A DNA stretch of 15,354 nt from Clostridiales bacterium. Its GTDB lineage: Bacteria > Bacillota > Clostridia > Oscillospirales > Acutalibacteraceae. The notes under the pieces were generated by a model that did no database searches, was not told the origin of the DNA, and worked only from the letters and a program-made list of their open reading frames with translations. Below are positions 2,484 through 7,036 of this stretch, piece by piece. Positions within the stretch are counted from its first letter, which is position 1, and every line of letters begins with the position of its first letter. The translations under genes were made by a program, and so were the position numbers. The DNA lies in the NCBI GenBank assembly GCA_014799585.1, contig JAAVHU010000047.1:1-15354 (forward strand). Direction: 5' to 3'.

Positions 2484-2748
2484 AGTATCATCTCCTGTAT
2501 AAATTAAAAAAGCTTTCGCCTCAAAAATGAGACGAAAGCATAATGTTTCCGTGGTACCACTCAAATTGCATTTTACAATTAAAATGCCGCTTAAATCTTT
2601 AACGCAGATATACGGGCAGAACTACTATGATTTCACCCTGCCGGCTCATACGCTACCTTCACTGACTTTCCTTTATGACTTGCACCAACCGTCAATTCTC
2701 TGAAAATTCCAATCAGATACTCCTCGTAATCGTTGCCGTTTATTATTG
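2484..2748 (-). promoter_or_regulatory. T-box leader (tRNA-Val sensing) of valS
   Basis: This untranslated leader binds uncharged tRNA-Val and prevents termination so that valS is transcribed. Seen: the T-box sequence TGAGTGGTACCACGGAAA at about 2546-2563 (minus strand), a Stem I with the AGUA/GAA internal-loop signature, and an intrinsic terminator directly before the ribosome-binding site. The UGGU in the T-box bulge can pair with the ACCA 3' end expected of tRNA-Val. In the specifier loop (5' arm UACG...AGUA, 3' arm GAAGGUAGCGUA) the GUA codon at 2656-2654 matches valine and the gene; the triplet GGU one base earlier is the only alternative register. The class is certain; the exact helix borders are by eye. 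Confidence 0.95.
2505..2539 (-). terminator. T-box regulated intrinsic terminator before valS
   Basis: The stem GCTTTCG (2533-2539 with 2512-2518) is extended by a GAG/CTC segment (2529-2531 with 2520-2522) across one mismatch. A six-T tract follows on the minus strand, about 22 bases before the valS start. In the tRNA-bound state the T-box antiterminator just upstream should replace it. Confidence 0.9.
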
Positions 2749-2856: not shown

Positions 2857-5706
2857 TTATTTTCTTTTAGCACTTACAACACTGCTGTAATTTGATGTTG
2901 CAGAACTGTTTTTACTTGTTACTGCAATTATTTTATAGCTGTAAGTTTTACCTTTTGCTGCTACACCTGTTGTATATGATGTTCCTGTTACAGTTTTTAC
3001 CCACTTGTAAGTGCCGTTTGCCTGTTTGAGATAAACACCGTATTTTGTAGCCCCTGCAACCTTGTTCCAAGAAAGTTTAAACGTACCATTCTTGTTTACA
3101 ACAGCCTTAACACCGCTTGGTGTTTGCAGTTTCTTGTTATTCGTTACATTAACAGCATTGCTGAATTCAGACACAACCGAACTTGTATTTCCAACTGCTA
3201 ATACTTTATAATTATAAGTTCTGCCATACTGTGCAGTTCCTGTTGTCCAAGATGTTCCTGTAACAGTCTTTACCCAAGTATATGTGCCATTTGCATTCTT
3301 ATAGTAAATGCCATACTTTATAGCCCCTGCAATCTTATTCCAAGAAAGCGTAAATGAGCCGTTTGCATTCACTGTTCCTTTTAATACCGGTTTTGCAAGC
3401 CCTGTTGCAGGGATGGTTTCTTTTTTCGTTGATTTGCAGTTTTTGCAGGTGTATGTTTTTACGCCTGCTGTTGTAACTGATGCAGGTGTTGTTATCTTTC
3501 CGCTGTCATAACTATGGCCCGTTGCTTTAACAGTTTTCTGAGCTGTGATAACTGTATTACACACAGAACAATGCGACCCTGCAGTTTTCCCTGCCTTTGT
3601 GCAGGTTGGGGCTACTGCCTTATCTGTTACTGCTTTATGACCCGTAGCCTTTATTGCTTCTGTTACAGTAGCTTTACATACTGAGCAGGTATAGGTTTTA
3701 ACACCATTTGCAGTGCAGGTTGCCGCTTTTGTAACCTTGCCGTTATCATAGCTGTGCCCTGTTGTTTCAATAGTTTCCTGTGCATCAATAATAGTATTAC
3801 ATACTGAGCAATGAGTACCCACTGTTAAACCTGTTGTTGAACAAGTTGGTGCAACAGCATTGTCTATTACAACTTTATGACCCGTTGCAGGAACTGTTGC
3901 CTGTGCGGAAAAAACTGTATTACAAACAGAACAATGTGAACCTTCTGTTTTGCCTGCTGTTGTACAGGTTGGGGCAACAGCCTTGTCTGTTACAACTTTA
4001 TGACCTGTTGCGAAAATCGTTTCTGTTTTAATAATTGTACAATTCGAGCAAACATATTCTTTTCTACCGGGTGATGTACAGGTTGGCGCTTTTGTAACCT
4101 TGCCGTTATCATAGCTGTGCCCTGTTGCAGGGATAGTTTCTATTTTGGTTACACCACAAGCTGTGCAAGTATATGTCTTTTCACCTTTTAAAGTGCAAGT
4201 TGCATTTTTCGTGATTTCCCCATTATCGAAAGTATGCTCTGTCATAGGGATACTATATGTTTGCGTTGCACCACAGTTTGTGCAAGTACGTGTTCTGATA
4301 CCGTGTTCAGAACACGTTGGTGCCTGTGTTATTTCACCACTGTTATAGCTATGGTATTCTTTTGAGATTTCCTCTGTTTTTATTTCACCACAAATTGTGC
4401 AGGTATATGTTTTTTCCCCTTTTTCACTGCACGTAGCCGTTTTTGTGATTATTCCATTATCAAATACATGCCTACAATTAATAACACCATCTGAGCAGTA
4501 AATAACCGACTTAAATAATTGACTATTGCTATCGTTATTCGTTTTAAGCTCATTCCATTCATTTATGGTGCCATCATAATATACAGCAGAAATAGTAGTG
4601 TCGTAAAATGCCATACGGTCAATATGTGTTACACTATTTGACATTGTAATTTCCGTTATACGCGGACAATCAGAAAAGACACTGCTGCCGATAGTTGTAA
4701 CATTGTTTCCGATTATTACACTTTCTAAGCTTACACAATAACGAAACGCACCAGAGCCAATCGTTGTAACACTATTTGGAATTCTTACACTTTTTATATA
4801 GGAAAGACCTTCAAATGCATAATCATTAATGCTTGTTACCCCTTCCGGAATGGTTATGCTTTTTAAACTGTTGCAATTATAAAATGCAGATTTACCAATA
4901 CTTGTTACATTATTTCCGATTGATATATTCTCCAAACTAACGCAATTATAAAATGCCTTGTCATCAATAGCTGTAACGCTTTCAGGAAGATTGATTTCTG
5001 CTAAGTATGTACAATTATTAAACGCAGAGTTACCTATGCTTGTAACTTTATCACCCATTGTTACGCTAACTAAGTTAGTGCAACCACTGAACACTGCAGA
5101 TTCAATACTTGTAACACCGTTTGGAAGAATTACATTTGTTAAACTATCACAAGAAGCAAACGCACCACTTTCAATGCTTGTTACACTGGAAGGGATTGTT
5201 ATGCTTATTAAACTATGACAAGCATTAAATGCCTGCTCACCGATACTTGTTACACCATCAGGAATATTTACGCTTTTTAAATTACTGCAATAGCAAAATG
5301 CAAGCCTATTGATACTTGTTATACCGCTTCCGAGCGTTACAGTTTCCAACTTTGAGAAATTGGTAAACATCCAATCTTTAATACTTGTTACAGTATCAGG
5401 AATCACTACACTAATTAAAGAATCTTCTTGCGTTAAAAATGCATTTCTGGAAATACTTGTAACTGTTTTACCATCTATTTCGCTTGGAATGGATACTTCA
5501 AGGTCAGGGCCAATGTAATCATCAATCTCTATCGTTCCGTCAGCAAGAACTTTATAGGTATAATCCCCACTTGTTACGCTGCTTAATGCATAAGCAGAAA
5601 GGTCTATACCCGCAGTTATGCTAAAAAGCATTACTATTGCAAGCAATAAACTAAATACTTTTTTGAATGTAAAAGCCAATTTTCTTTTTTCAATTTTATT
5701 TTCCAT
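2857..5706 (-). CDS. Secreted BspA-type leucine-rich repeat protein with His/Cys repeats and two Fn3 domains
   Basis: Predicted exported protein of about 949 residues, probably for adhesion or binding at the cell surface; the ligand is unknown. A basic N-terminus and hydrophobic core (about residues 15-38) form a signal peptide with likely cleavage after AYA at about 40. Residues 80-370 hold 13 LRR_5 repeats of about 23 residues with the core VTSIxxxAF. A YYDGTINEWN segment follows, as is common after such repeats. Residues 413-769 contain nine tandem units of about 35-45 residues, each H-x(12-13)-C...C-x2-C; the ninth lacks the first Cys. Residues 770-949 form two near-duplicate Fn3-like domains. 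No LPXTG motif or C-terminal membrane anchor is seen, so attachment is unclear. I chose the ATG at 5706 because GGAGG lies ten bases upstream; a TTG six codons earlier overlaps that site. The gene has its own promoter and terminator and is a single-gene unit. Confidence 0.9.
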   Translation of the reverse strand: MENKIEKRKLAFTFKKVFSLLLAIVMLFSITAGIDLSAYALSSVTSGDYTYKVLADGTIEIDDYIGPDLEVSIPSEIDGKTVTSISRNAFLTQEDSLISVVIPDTVTSIKDWMFTNFSKLETVTLGSGITSINRLAFCYCSNLKSVNIPDGVTSIGEQAFNACHSLISITIPSSVTSIESGAFASCDSLTNVILPNGVTSIESAVFSGCTNLVSVTMGDKVTSIGNSAFNNCTYLAEINLPESVTAIDDKAFYNCVSLENISIGNNVTSIGKSAFYNCNSLKSITIPEGVTSINDYAFEGLSYIKSVRIPNSVTTIGSGAFRYCVSLESVIIGNNVTTIGSSVFSDCPRITEITMSNSVTHIDRMAFYDTTISAVYYDGTINEWNELKTNNDSNSQLFKSVIYCSDGVINCRHVFDNGIITKTATCSEKGEKTYTCTICGEIKTEEISKEYHSYNSGEITQAPTCSEHGIRTRTCTNCGATQTYSIPMTEHTFDNGEITKNATCTLKGEKTYTCTACGVTKIETIPATGHSYDNGKVTKAPTCTSPGRKEYVCSNCTIIKTETIFATGHKVVTDKAVAPTCTTAGKTEGSHCSVCNTVFSAQATVPATGHKVVIDNAVAPTCSTTGLTVGTHCSVCNTIIDAQETIETTGHSYDNGKVTKAATCTANGVKTYTCSVCKATVTEAIKATGHKAVTDKAVAPTCTKAGKTAGSHCSVCNTVITAQKTVKATGHSYDSGKITTPASVTTAGVKTYTCKNCKSTKKETIPATGLAKPVLKGTVNANGSFTLSWNKIAGAIKYGIYYKNANGTYTWVKTVTGTSWTTGTAQYGRTYNYKVLAVGNTSSVVSEFSNAVNVTNNKKLQTPSGVKAVVNKNGTFKLSWNKVAGATKYGVYLKQANGTYKWVKTVTGTSYTTGVAAKGKTYSYKIIAVTSKNSSATSNYSSVVSAKRK

Positions 5707-5813
5707 AATACCCACGACCTCCAAGGAAAAATAAACATCAAAAAGTTACGCCGCATAAGGCAATAACAAAAACACTTACCGAACAAATCGGATAGGATGT
5801 TATATATAATTTA

Positions 5814-5843: not shown

Positions 5844-5872
5844 AAAAAAACTCCCATCACTTTGATGGGAGT
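5844..5872 (-). terminator. Intrinsic terminator of the putative non-coding RNA
   Basis: Perfect stem ACTCCCATCA/TGATGGGAGT (5850-5859 with 5863-5872) with a 3-base loop and a seven-T tract (5850-5844) on the minus strand. No protein gene lies immediately upstream on this strand, so it must end a non-coding transcript or attenuate a long leader of the LRR gene. Confidence 0.9.
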
Positions 5873-6345
5873 TGATATTTTTATCTATTAAATTTACTTA
5901 GTACATTGGACTAACCTCTCACAATTATTTTTTTGAAACAATGAAGCTCCTTAACATGGAACCATCTCCTCAAATAATTATCGTTTGTCGAGTTTATATT
6001 AGTTAGTGCATCGGACTACTCCTTAGTTTATTTGGGTGAAGATTTTTTATCTTCAAGCTTTTGCAGGGAAAGCTAAATTCATATACAATTAAATTAAATT
6101 AAATTTTTTAGACGCCTGTGTATTCATCTAATGGTTCCTGCTATAACTAATTTACTGCTTTATAGCTTGCTGCCCGTTATTGACTCTTTTTATCAATTCT
6201 GCCGACAGCCCATTCCGTTATATTACCTGAATACTGAGCAGGCGTTTGTCTGACCTGGTTCTGTATCTACCATCGGACAAAGCCTCCTTTCATAATTTGA
6301 ACTTAACCAAGAATTCTACTTCAATTCTTCCCTCTCTTAAGTTCA
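5844..6345 (-). ncRNA. Putative structured RNA of about 500 nt, class not recognised
   Basis: A consensus promoter and a strong intrinsic terminator bracket about 500 bases with no long reading frame. Complementary segments seen, in plus coordinates: 6337-6346 with 6297-6306 (10 bp, with an inner 7-bp stem 6309-6315/6323-6329); 6276-6281 with 6245-6250; 6239-6245 with 6112-6118 (7 bp, enclosing about 120 bases); 6204-6209 with 6169-6174 plus inner 6193-6197/6179-6183; 6160-6166 with 6140-6146; 6131-6138 with 5958-5965 (8 bp, long range); 6069-6074 with 6056-6061; 6049-6055 with 6037-6043. Two small look-alike hairpins have loops in GUCCRAUG (about 5898-5914 and 6004-6018). The marks of tmRNA, RNase P RNA, SRP RNA, 6S RNA and T-box are absent. 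It could be a large ornate RNA such as ROOL, a new class, or an attenuator leader of the LRR gene. The start is inferred from the promoter. Confidence 0.65.
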
Positions 6346-6350
6346 ACCTC

Positions 6351-6379
6351 ATAATAACACACCTTTTAGCAATTGTCAA
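6351..6379 (-). promoter_or_regulatory. Sigma-A promoter of the putative non-coding RNA
   Basis: Perfect -35 TTGACA (6379-6374), 17-base spacer and -10 TATTAT (6356-6351) on the minus strand, with start expected near 6344. It is one of the best promoter matches in the window and suggests strong expression. It is divergent from the DUF1292 promoter about 60 bases away. Confidence 0.87.
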
Positions 6380-6495: not shown

Positions 6496-6813
6496 ATGGA
6501 TAACGAAAAAGAGTTTTACGAACCTGATATTATTTCAGTTACCGATGATAACGGAAACGAAATATTATTTGAACTTCTTGAAAGATATGAAACAGATGAA
6601 GACGTTTATGTTGCTATAACAGAATACAGAGATGATGCCGAAGAAATCGTTGAGGCTGATTACGAAGTGATTATTCTTAAAGTGCTTGAAGATGACGGCG
6701 AAGAATACCTTGCTGAAATTGAGGACGAAATGGAATACGAACAGGTTTCTGATATTCTTATGGCAAAGGTTGAGGAAAAATTTGAGGTTGAATATTTTGA
6801 ACCTGAGCAGTGA
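6496..6813 (+). CDS. DUF1292 family protein (YrzB-like)
   Basis: Small, very acidic cytoplasmic protein of 105 residues. The opening (ISVTDDNGNEILFELLERYE), the central DYEVIILKVLEDDGEEYLAEIEDEMEYE and the C-terminal VSDILMAKVEEKF correspond to the DUF1292/YrzB family of Firmicutes; the function is unknown. In many relatives the gene sits with alaS and ruvX/yrrK; here it stands alone, with its own promoter and 6S RNA directly downstream. The start is an ATG with AAAGGAAG upstream, and codon use looks ordinary. The stop codon lies about 20 bases before the putative -10 of the 6S RNA, so readthrough into that RNA is possible. Confidence 0.9.
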   Translation: MDNEKEFYEPDIISVTDDNGNEILFELLERYETDEDVYVAITEYRDDAEEIVEADYEVIILKVLEDDGEEYLAEIEDEMEYEQVSDILMAKVEEKFEVEYFEPEQ

Positions 6814-6838: not shown

Positions 6839-6845
6839 GTTTACA

Positions 6846-7036
6846 GTCTGTGCATCTCGACAACCGAAAGCTTTAATAACCCGAACAATCTTTTATTAGG
6901 GATTTACGCTCGCCTTATGGGTATGCAGACCTCCCGCTTTTATGCGGACGTTGGTAGCACAAAGTAATGCGGCTAAAACCCACCTGCTTTAATATGCAGG
7001 TTATTCTCAGTTTTCGGCGGATGTGCGGATTTTTTG
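6846..7036 (+). ncRNA. ssrS: 6S RNA (RNA polymerase-binding regulator)
   Basis: 6S RNA mimics an open promoter and binds the housekeeping sigma-RNA polymerase holoenzyme, mainly in slow growth. The stretch is about 190 bases, the family's usual size. A closing stem joins 6846-6856 to 7020-7030, followed across an internal loop by CCGAAA (6864-6869) with TTTCGG (7011-7016 region). The 3' half carries GGCTAAAAC, then a small hairpin CCTGC/GCAGG (6983-7000), then CGGCGGATGTGCGG. From memory, E. coli 6S RNA has the same order: GCCTTAAAAC, a CCTTGAA/TTCAAGG hairpin, then CGGCGGCATCTCGG. A T-run follows at 7030-7035. The class rests on this architecture and recalled sequence likeness, not on a model search. 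Confidence 0.8.

Follow-up and report, generated by a model that had tools for sequence, protein, structure and literature searches.

A structured RNA with repeated start-stop units in the [Eubacterium] coprostanoligenes group

The minus strand of the window, i.e., the entire stretch of 15,354 nt that was analysed, contains a gene of about 500 bases (approximately 6344 to 5845) whose sequence features identify it, almost certainly, as a stand-alone RNA with its own promoter and terminator. With very little doubt this RNA represents a new class of structured RNAs that is absent from Rfam. Its 5' domain is predicted to form a covarying fold that includes a pseudoknot and is threaded by a conserved short ORF, and its 3' tail holds repeated units of a Shine-Dalgarno (SD) sequence, a start codon and an early stop codon, which are probably the functional core of the RNA.

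Results

Transcript limits and genomic context

The transcript is preceded by the promoter TTGACA-N17(TG)-TATTAT (6379-6351, minus strand), which had already been recognised in a preliminary description of the locus; it agrees with the consensus in 11 of 12 positions and carries a TG in front of the -10 element (extended -10). A promoter match at most 200 nt from the core was observed for 57 of 60 homologues, in all 57 cases with the TGn motif and in 56 with the 17-nt spacing. With the start inferred approximately 7 nt after the -10 element, the RNA as modelled covers positions 5845-6344 of the minus strand and ends in an intrinsic terminator (5873-5849, minus strand), for which the seven Ts described previously were retrieved, two of them inside the stem, while the stem comprises 11 pairs instead of the 10 given earlier. 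The terminator was identified in 54 of 60 homologous loci. The same description had characterised the interval as lacking a long frame, which holds true but overlooked a conserved short ORF (ORF1) and the start-stop units.

The RNA gene is located divergently to a DUF1292 gene (PF06949, assigned by Pfam; 6496-6813, plus strand) that serves as a syntenic marker, next to which a genuine 6S RNA gene is situated (RF00013, Rfam cmscan; 6842-7035, plus strand), and both neighbours are in agreement with the earlier account. Except for L004, L005, and L027, whose contigs end first, DUF1292 occurs divergently upstream of all distinct homologues (57 of 60, or 58 of 61 counting the duplicate L068), and 6S RNA was also detected in five of 12 other homologous loci scanned. 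On the downstream side, positions 2857-5724 encode a 955-aa repeat protein which by eye has the look of BspA-type leucine-rich repeats (LRR), and a promoter-like site at this gene (5842-5814) lies just past the RNA terminator. A T-box leader (2525-2742, minus strand; Rfam cmscan, 136.5 bits) reads toward the left end of the contig. The downstream content varies among the genomes examined, with the LRR gene in the window and T-box leaders or other genes elsewhere, and the conserved downstream gene that would mark a cis-regulatory leader was not observed in the loci examined.

Homologues and distribution

A blastn search and an alignment of homologues, as proposed in the preliminary description, yielded matches in 48 of 198 relatives at an E value of 0.01 or better, some of them short, and 53 aligned sequences. 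With a covariance model built from 29 sequences, the RNA was found in 61 of 80 genomes of the [Eubacterium] coprostanoligenes group genus and in 45 of the 51 good genomes. Each carrier genome contains one match, with a single exception in which the second match was judged spurious. Among the named relatives are Eubacterium coprostanoligenes ATCC 51222 and metagenome-assembled genomes, several of which originate from rumen or deer. Searches beyond the genus used stricter filters, by which weak members may be lost: in the family, nine of 300 genomes matched, two of them judged spurious, and a better model matched nine of 398 genomes from three of 135 genera; in the order, the three matches among 345 genomes all belong to the genus of the RNA itself.

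The weak model matches L098, L099, and L100 were discarded, since neither such a promoter nor ORF1 or units were seen on inspection of their sequences. All three features are present in L095 (E 0.0095), which was retained as a homologue but left out of the structure counts. In detail, L068 (a duplicate of L026) was omitted from the ORF1, unit, promoter, and terminator counts, L095 and L019 from the aligned sets, and L003 and L005 (near duplicates) as well as L070, L076, and L093 (large indels) additionally from alignment A2. In case of L015, L017, and L018, the distance between DUF1292 and the core is approximately 200-350 nt longer than in most loci, which suggests an extended 5' domain.

Comparison with known RNA classes

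Within the window, only the T-box leader and 6S RNA matched any of the 4227 families of Rfam 15 (cmscan), and the corresponding scan of 12 homologous loci returned only 6S, T-box, and tRNA matches. The preliminary description had reported that marks of tmRNA, RNase P, SRP, 6S, and T-box RNAs are missing, had left the choice between a known ornate class (ROOL, OLE, GOLLD) and a new one, and had proposed a comparison with the Rfam models. This comparison agrees with the missing marks and favours the second option, as none of tmRNA, RNase P, SRP, 6S, T-box, ROOL, GOLLD, and OLE matched the RNA at or above the gathering cutoff. In a permissive scan of the segment, MicC, SpF39, and others appeared far below their gathering scores and were taken as chance matches; the two best sub-threshold matches end at the terminator hairpin. 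In the literature searched, titles and the beginnings of abstracts held no description of such an RNA.

The RNA resembles ROOL, GOLLD, and OLE, which are represented in Rfam, in being long, structured, and equipped with its own promoter and terminator, but differs from them in matching no Rfam family and in holding a conserved short ORF together with start-stop units. Its link to 6S RNA (RF00013) is the neighbouring position at the locus; to the 6S model itself the RNA gives no match.

Fold of the 5' domain

The predicted fold energy of the RNA (-115.4 kcal/mol) is lower than that of each of 100 dinucleotide shuffles (mean -95.3 kcal/mol, z -3.9). All helices described in the following are given in minus-strand orientation. 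A 5' hairpin P0, proposed by eye, pairs GAACUUAA (6344-6337) with UUAAGUUC (6306-6299); by a rough count, 29 of 50 scored homologues agree in at least six of the seven positions, and in the minimum-energy fold P0 is partly paired otherwise. P1 (UUUGUC, 6281-6276, with GACAAA, 6250-6245) encloses the start codon of ORF1 and is weaker, with 67-69% of cells paired, in part limited by the alignment. P2 (CGCCUG, 6244-6239, with CAGGCG, 6118-6113) and P3 (GUAUUC, 6234-6229, with GAAUAC, 6125-6120, and GGU, 6227-6225, with ACC, 6135-6133) constitute a long stem that closes a multiloop. P2 is paired in 93% of cells with double changes in six of seven pairs; the two halves of P3 reach 76% and 86%, with double changes in nine of ten pairs.

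Inside the multiloop, P4 (AUAAC, 6221-6217, with GUUAU, 6147-6143) is nearly invariant: it is paired in 99% of cells and hardly varies, hence it is not amenable to a covariation test. P5 (GCUGUC, 6209-6204, with GGCAGC, 6174-6169) and its inner hairpin P5b (AUUGA, 6197-6193, with UCAAU, 6183-6179) are paired in 96% and 86% of cells, respectively, with double changes in all pairs. Just 3' of P4, GCAGG (6141-6137) is predicted to pair with CCUGC (6067-6063) in the loop of P7, thereby creating a pseudoknot that is paired in 99% of cells and in which all five pairs are doubly changed in one to three sequences each, e.g., GUCGG/CCGAC. P7 itself (AGCUUU, 6074-6069, with AAAGCU, 6061-6056) is paired in 92% of cells with double changes in all pairs. 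The hairpin P8 (UGAAGAU, 6055-6049, with AUCUUCA, 6043-6037) has covariation support in alignment A1 but aligns poorly in the larger alignment, where it does not exceed the controls (52% paired versus 48% shuffled); P6 does not exceed the controls in this alignment either (49% versus 43%).

Covariation, named in the preliminary description as a test of the helices, was assessed against shuffled and slid controls, and the fold scores above both. When 53 sequences were aligned with MAFFT, 88.1% of cells were paired, compared to 75.0% in shuffled and 31-39% in slid controls. The covariation score is 0.410, compared to 0.198 for shuffled (reached in 0 of 500) and 0.06-0.09 for slid alignments, whereby the shuffles ignore phylogeny. 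The controls moreover lean toward the fold: when RNAalifold was applied to the first alignment, its proposal was limited to P1, P2, P5, P8, and a two-pair helix, and the remaining helices were suggested by eye from the same sequences. Read with these limits, the comparison supports the conservation of P2/P3, P5/P5b, P7, and the pseudoknot.

Two long-range helices had been put forward previously. The pairing of 6239-6245 with 6112-6118 corresponds to P2 and covaries strongly. The pairing of 6131-6138 with 5958-5965 is complementary in the window sequence but unconserved: a 7-mer version is kept in two of 47 homologues tested, it competes with P3, and it is probably a chance pairing. The proposal of an independent large structured RNA is backed by the conservation of promoter and terminator, the fixed synteny, and the covariation including the pseudoknot.

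ORF1 is threaded through the fold

ORF1 (MVDTEPGQTNACSVFR*; 6223-6273, minus strand), preceded by the SD sequence AGGAGG at 6288-6283, ends just before P4. All 60 homologues contain this ORF with a length of 10-17 codons and AGGAGG or AGGGGG 7-11 nt in front of the AUG. The P4 anchor string is located within -3 to +12 nt of the end of the ORF1 stop codon in 57 of 60 homologues; in the remaining three the exact string is missing near the stop, and in L010 and L011 ORF1 stops inside P4. The frame survives indels, as exemplified by a compensated frameshift of L004 compared to L003. The peptide sequence is not conserved across homologues, and a functional ORF1 peptide is thus unlikely. Since ORF1 runs through P1, P2, and P3, translation and folding exclude each other. 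The folded domain might act as a switch in which translation of ORF1 would unfold the domain and folding would hide the ORF1 start.

Start-stop units in the 3' tail

Downstream of P8, the tail holds units composed of a purine-rich SD sequence, CC, R, AUG, usually one codon, and a stop codon. Their pattern in the genus is GAGGU-N-CCRAUG-NNC-UAA, with an A/G variant of the first base (A/GAGGU). The window contains three units on the minus strand, unit 1 (AAGGAGUAGUCCG-AUG-CAC-UAA, 6003-6024), unit 2 (GAGGAGAUGGUUCC-AUG, 5925-5971), which opens the decapeptide MLRSFIVSKK*, and unit 3 (GAGGUUAGUCCA-AUG-UAC-UAA, 5898-5918). A decapeptide-like ORF (M-L/I-R-x-F-I-V-x-x-K like; 5925-5957 in the window) was observed in unit 2 of 15 of 19 close loci; it was seen in this close group only and could be a real micropeptide.

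The strict pattern identified 144 units in the tails of 59 loci (without L068 and L095), whereas 100 shuffles gave 1.3 on average and at most 5, and 52 of the 59 tails contain two or three units. A stop codon within four codons occurs in frame for 125 of 144 units, compared to 63 and 33 in the other two frames, and 97 units stop directly after the second codon. This second codon is mostly NNC (UAC 62, GGC 24, CAC 15, UUC 11, and GAC 10, n = 144). With a looser definition of the unit and a stop within six codons, the numbers by frame are 148 of 180, 105 of 168, and 67 of 176.

Units in leaders of putative secreted-protein genes

The pattern GAGGN{1,4}AGTCCRATG matched 58 times in 80 genomes of the genus, compared to six control matches. 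Sixteen matches away from the RNA were inspected, among which the further site G065:C370 is not included. In seven of them the unit is associated with a uORF of 2-10 codons, and the start codon of the next gene follows 73-84 nt past the first base of the unit. These leader units (L191 and L192 twice each, L214, L215, and L220) derive from four of the 80 genomes. By eye, six of the seven products have a signal peptide-like beginning; the frame of the first L191 copy is interrupted after 14 codons. None of five putative secreted proteins tested scores above the Pfam cutoff. Some neighbours of the leader genes look, by eye, like membrane or ABC-transporter proteins. The other nine sites (L193-L195, L216-L219, L221, and L222) are coding, gene starts or unclear and were not considered further. 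Outside the genus, two units are located 115-118 nt upstream of putative secreted-protein genes (L228 and L240).

At the sequence level, the element is thus both repeated in the RNA and present in mRNA leaders, as would be expected of a repeat-array decoy. Two of the four genomes with leader units, G011 and G056, gave no match to the RNA model, hence a sponge and its targets do not always co-occur, although the absence of the RNA may be explained by the draft state of the assemblies.

Unit-bearing relatives outside the genus

A search with DUF1292 matched 99 of 120 genomes of the family, and the best 30 places were retrieved, four from carriers and 26 from other genera (39-51% DUF1292 identity). 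At E below 0.02, the covariance model gave two weak matches among the other-genus loci, L153 (18.6 bits) and L165 (16.5 bits), which were not counted as evidence for the fold. A divergent promoter and a unit next to DUF1292 were observed in 10 of the 26 loci; in 16, including two with too little sequence to judge, the unit was not found.

The RNA of L165 consists almost only of units, namely three GGUGAGUCC units plus a short ORF, a fourth unit, and a terminator, and those of L157 and L182 are composed of a short ORF and two units. L173 contains four units in which AAAG or AAAA replaces AUG. By eye, small hairpins seem to come after these units, and they may be part of the unit module in the genus of L173. 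L157, L158, L165, L173, and others retain units that lack AUG but otherwise preserve the motif, and the units of L179, from another genus, use GUG or AUG. The core common to the genera is accordingly GGUGAGUCCRA, and AUG followed by an early stop is near-invariant only in part of the family. In case of L180 and L250, the unit-bearing RNAs are located on contigs other than that of the DUF1292 gene found in the same genome.

Tandem pairs of GGTGAGTCC occur in 11 of 300 genomes of the family and eight of 135 genera, two of the 11 looking unrelated. The arrays of G347 and G369 were set aside as apparently unrelated tandem repeats; at G347:C29 and G369:C4, repeats of approximately 36 bp contain GGTGAGTCC and AAGTGGAAGTTGTACAAGA and seem to have no relation to the RNA. 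GGTGAGTCCRATG was found 49 times in 160 genomes of the family and twice in the reversed control, a control that ignores ordinary SD-AUG contexts; eight of 30 inspected GGTGAGTCCRATG loci (L223, L230, L232, L233, L242, L243, L246, and L247) appear, as read by eye, to be situated within ordinary genes or at their beginning. A phage origin was considered and rejected: GAGGTGAGTCCRATG occurs in 86 viral stretches, but the 80 listed contain one match each and no arrays, and by a rough estimate this number does not exceed chance. Outside the genus, the comparison reveals a wider class of unit-bearing RNAs in the family.

Complementarity to the 16S rRNA 3' tail

The 16S rRNA 3' tail, located by pattern in three of 15 genomes (G000, G005, and G047), reads GCGGCUGGAUCACCUCCUUUCU. 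Compared to its complement, AGGUGAUCC, the unit carries one extra G, i.e., AGGUGA-g-UCC is complementary to the tail except for this base and resembles an SD sequence extended by UCC. Predicted duplexes between units and the tail have an average energy of -11.4 kcal/mol, which changes to -9.1 kcal/mol if CC is altered in silico; the CC of the unit would thus contribute approximately 2.3 kcal/mol on average.

Discussion

The existence of RNAs consisting of little else than units, together with the recurrence of the unit in mRNA leaders, is most economically explained by a multi-site decoy, and we tentatively propose that the RNA titrates a binder common to these leaders, without regarding the case as settled in its favour. 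The tail, mostly with two or three units, would act as the multi-site decoy, and the binder would also recognise the unit where it occurs in the 5' leaders of some mRNAs for secreted proteins, so that its titration would change the translation or stability of these mRNAs. Candidates for the binder are the 30S subunit, contacted through the 16S rRNA 3' tail, or some RNA-binding regulator, which may be a protein or another RNA. That the 30S subunit itself is bound appears rather unlikely, and the extra G of GGUGAGUCC would be odd if maximal pairing to 16S rRNA had been selected. Units devoid of AUG in other genera favour binding over decoding and argue against a purely translational role; early stops and the exchange of GUG and AUG favour engagement of the ribosome, and the near-invariant AUG and early stop in the genus argue against a purely protein-binding motif. 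Against the decoy stand the few genomes in which leader elements were seen (four of 80 in the genus) and the 16 of 26 other-genus DUF1292 loci without a unit, bearing in mind the two with too little sequence.

The CsrB/RsmY sponges, which titrate CsrA, are similar in being stand-alone RNAs with a repeated, ribosome binding site-like element that is also present in mRNA leaders. Their repeat is an ANGGA hairpin, whereas the repeat described here is GGUGAGUCCRAUG, has start and stop codons, and follows a pseudoknotted 5' domain. On inspection, multiple GGA hairpin loops as in CsrB/RsmY were not observed, the repeats being GAGGU/GGUGAGUCC start-stop units; some units contain GGAG, none of which was seen as a GGA hairpin loop. 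CsrB-CsrA provides the logical parallel for a decoy (PMC5027483, PMC5574718), and iraD a precedent for a uORF-coupled CsrA case (PMC5574718).

Several other explanations have to be weighed against the decoy. STAB-SD or ribosome roadblock leaders contain a strong SD sequence in the 5' region, well away from the genuine start codon. By analogy, the units might be 30S docking sites at which 5' exonucleases are blocked, in this RNA as well as in the leaders of secreted-protein mRNAs with a long lifetime; the functional part of the RNA would then be its folded 5' domain. We regard this as unlikely but worth keeping in mind: the units are strong SD sequences with extended 16S complementarity that lie far from a real start codon, units without AUG, as in L173, would still bind 30S subunits, and the position upstream of secreted-protein genes fits. 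The known cases differ from the present RNA, which is not a leader and carries several units along its length with a conserved motif extending past the SD sequence, the CC and the NNC-stop exceeding what an SD requires. Moreover, L165 and L182 are almost only short ORF and units and have no 5' domain to protect, and units spread to the 3' end are needless against a 5' exonuclease.

An array of translated minigenes is improbable to a greater degree. The lambda bar minigenes consist of an SD sequence followed by a two-codon ORF and a stop, with AUA as the second codon, and 97 of 144 units have this architecture of SD, AUG, one codon, and stop. Translated units could accordingly act through release of dipeptidyl-tRNA or fMet-dipeptide or through occupation of initiation factors. 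The in-frame stops within four codons (125 of 144), the predominance of NNC second codons (UAC in 62 of 144), the preservation of the ORF1 frame in all 60 homologues along with its compensated frameshift, and the use of GUG as well as AUG in one genus are all in line with translation. In contrast to lambda bar, the units are arrayed in a chromosomal stand-alone RNA, their second codon is mostly NNC, and the AUG was lost in some relatives that keep the motif otherwise intact; peptides and second codons also vary between units.

Similarly doubtful, and given even less credence, is a function that resides in the pseudoknotted domain, which might serve as a scaffold, sense a ligand or act as a catalyst, while ORF1 and the tail would play an accessory part in controlling folding or turnover. 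The elaborate, strongly covarying fold and its single copy at a fixed position in 45 of 51 good genomes would suit such a role, but under the stricter filters the modelled fold was found in only three of 135 genera, while the units are more widespread and persist without it. That the RNA is a long leader or attenuator which regulates the divergent DUF1292 gene or a downstream gene in cis is very improbable in spite of the conserved divergent arrangement (57 of 60), since it has a terminator of its own, what follows downstream varies among the genomes examined, and in the case of L180 and L250 the unit-bearing RNA and the DUF1292 gene found are on separate contigs.

Returning to the decoy, it is tempting to speculate about a regulatory system common to the family, in Clostridia of gut and rumen, that is based on a dedicated RNA with an array of units resembling ribosome starts. 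By titrating the 30S subunit or some regulator that binds start sites, the array would control mRNAs whose leaders contain the unit and which encode secreted proteins, possibly with an antagonistic function; in some genera, a pseudoknotted, translation-sensitive domain would guard the array. This extended scenario is less likely to be right than wrong. It is rare to find a large conserved RNA whose role is not known, and the recurrence of the unit in identifiable mRNA leaders offers a concrete lead by which function is directly testable. With E. coprostanoligenes ATCC 51222, the lineage includes a named strain in which expression can be checked. 6S RNA provides a precedent for the titration of a core machine by an RNA, and, if the scenario is true, the RNA described here would be the equivalent of 6S RNA or CsrB at the level of translation, made up of start-stop codons. 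Titration of 30S subunits or of a start-site regulator by such an RNA would represent a new principle of global translation control.
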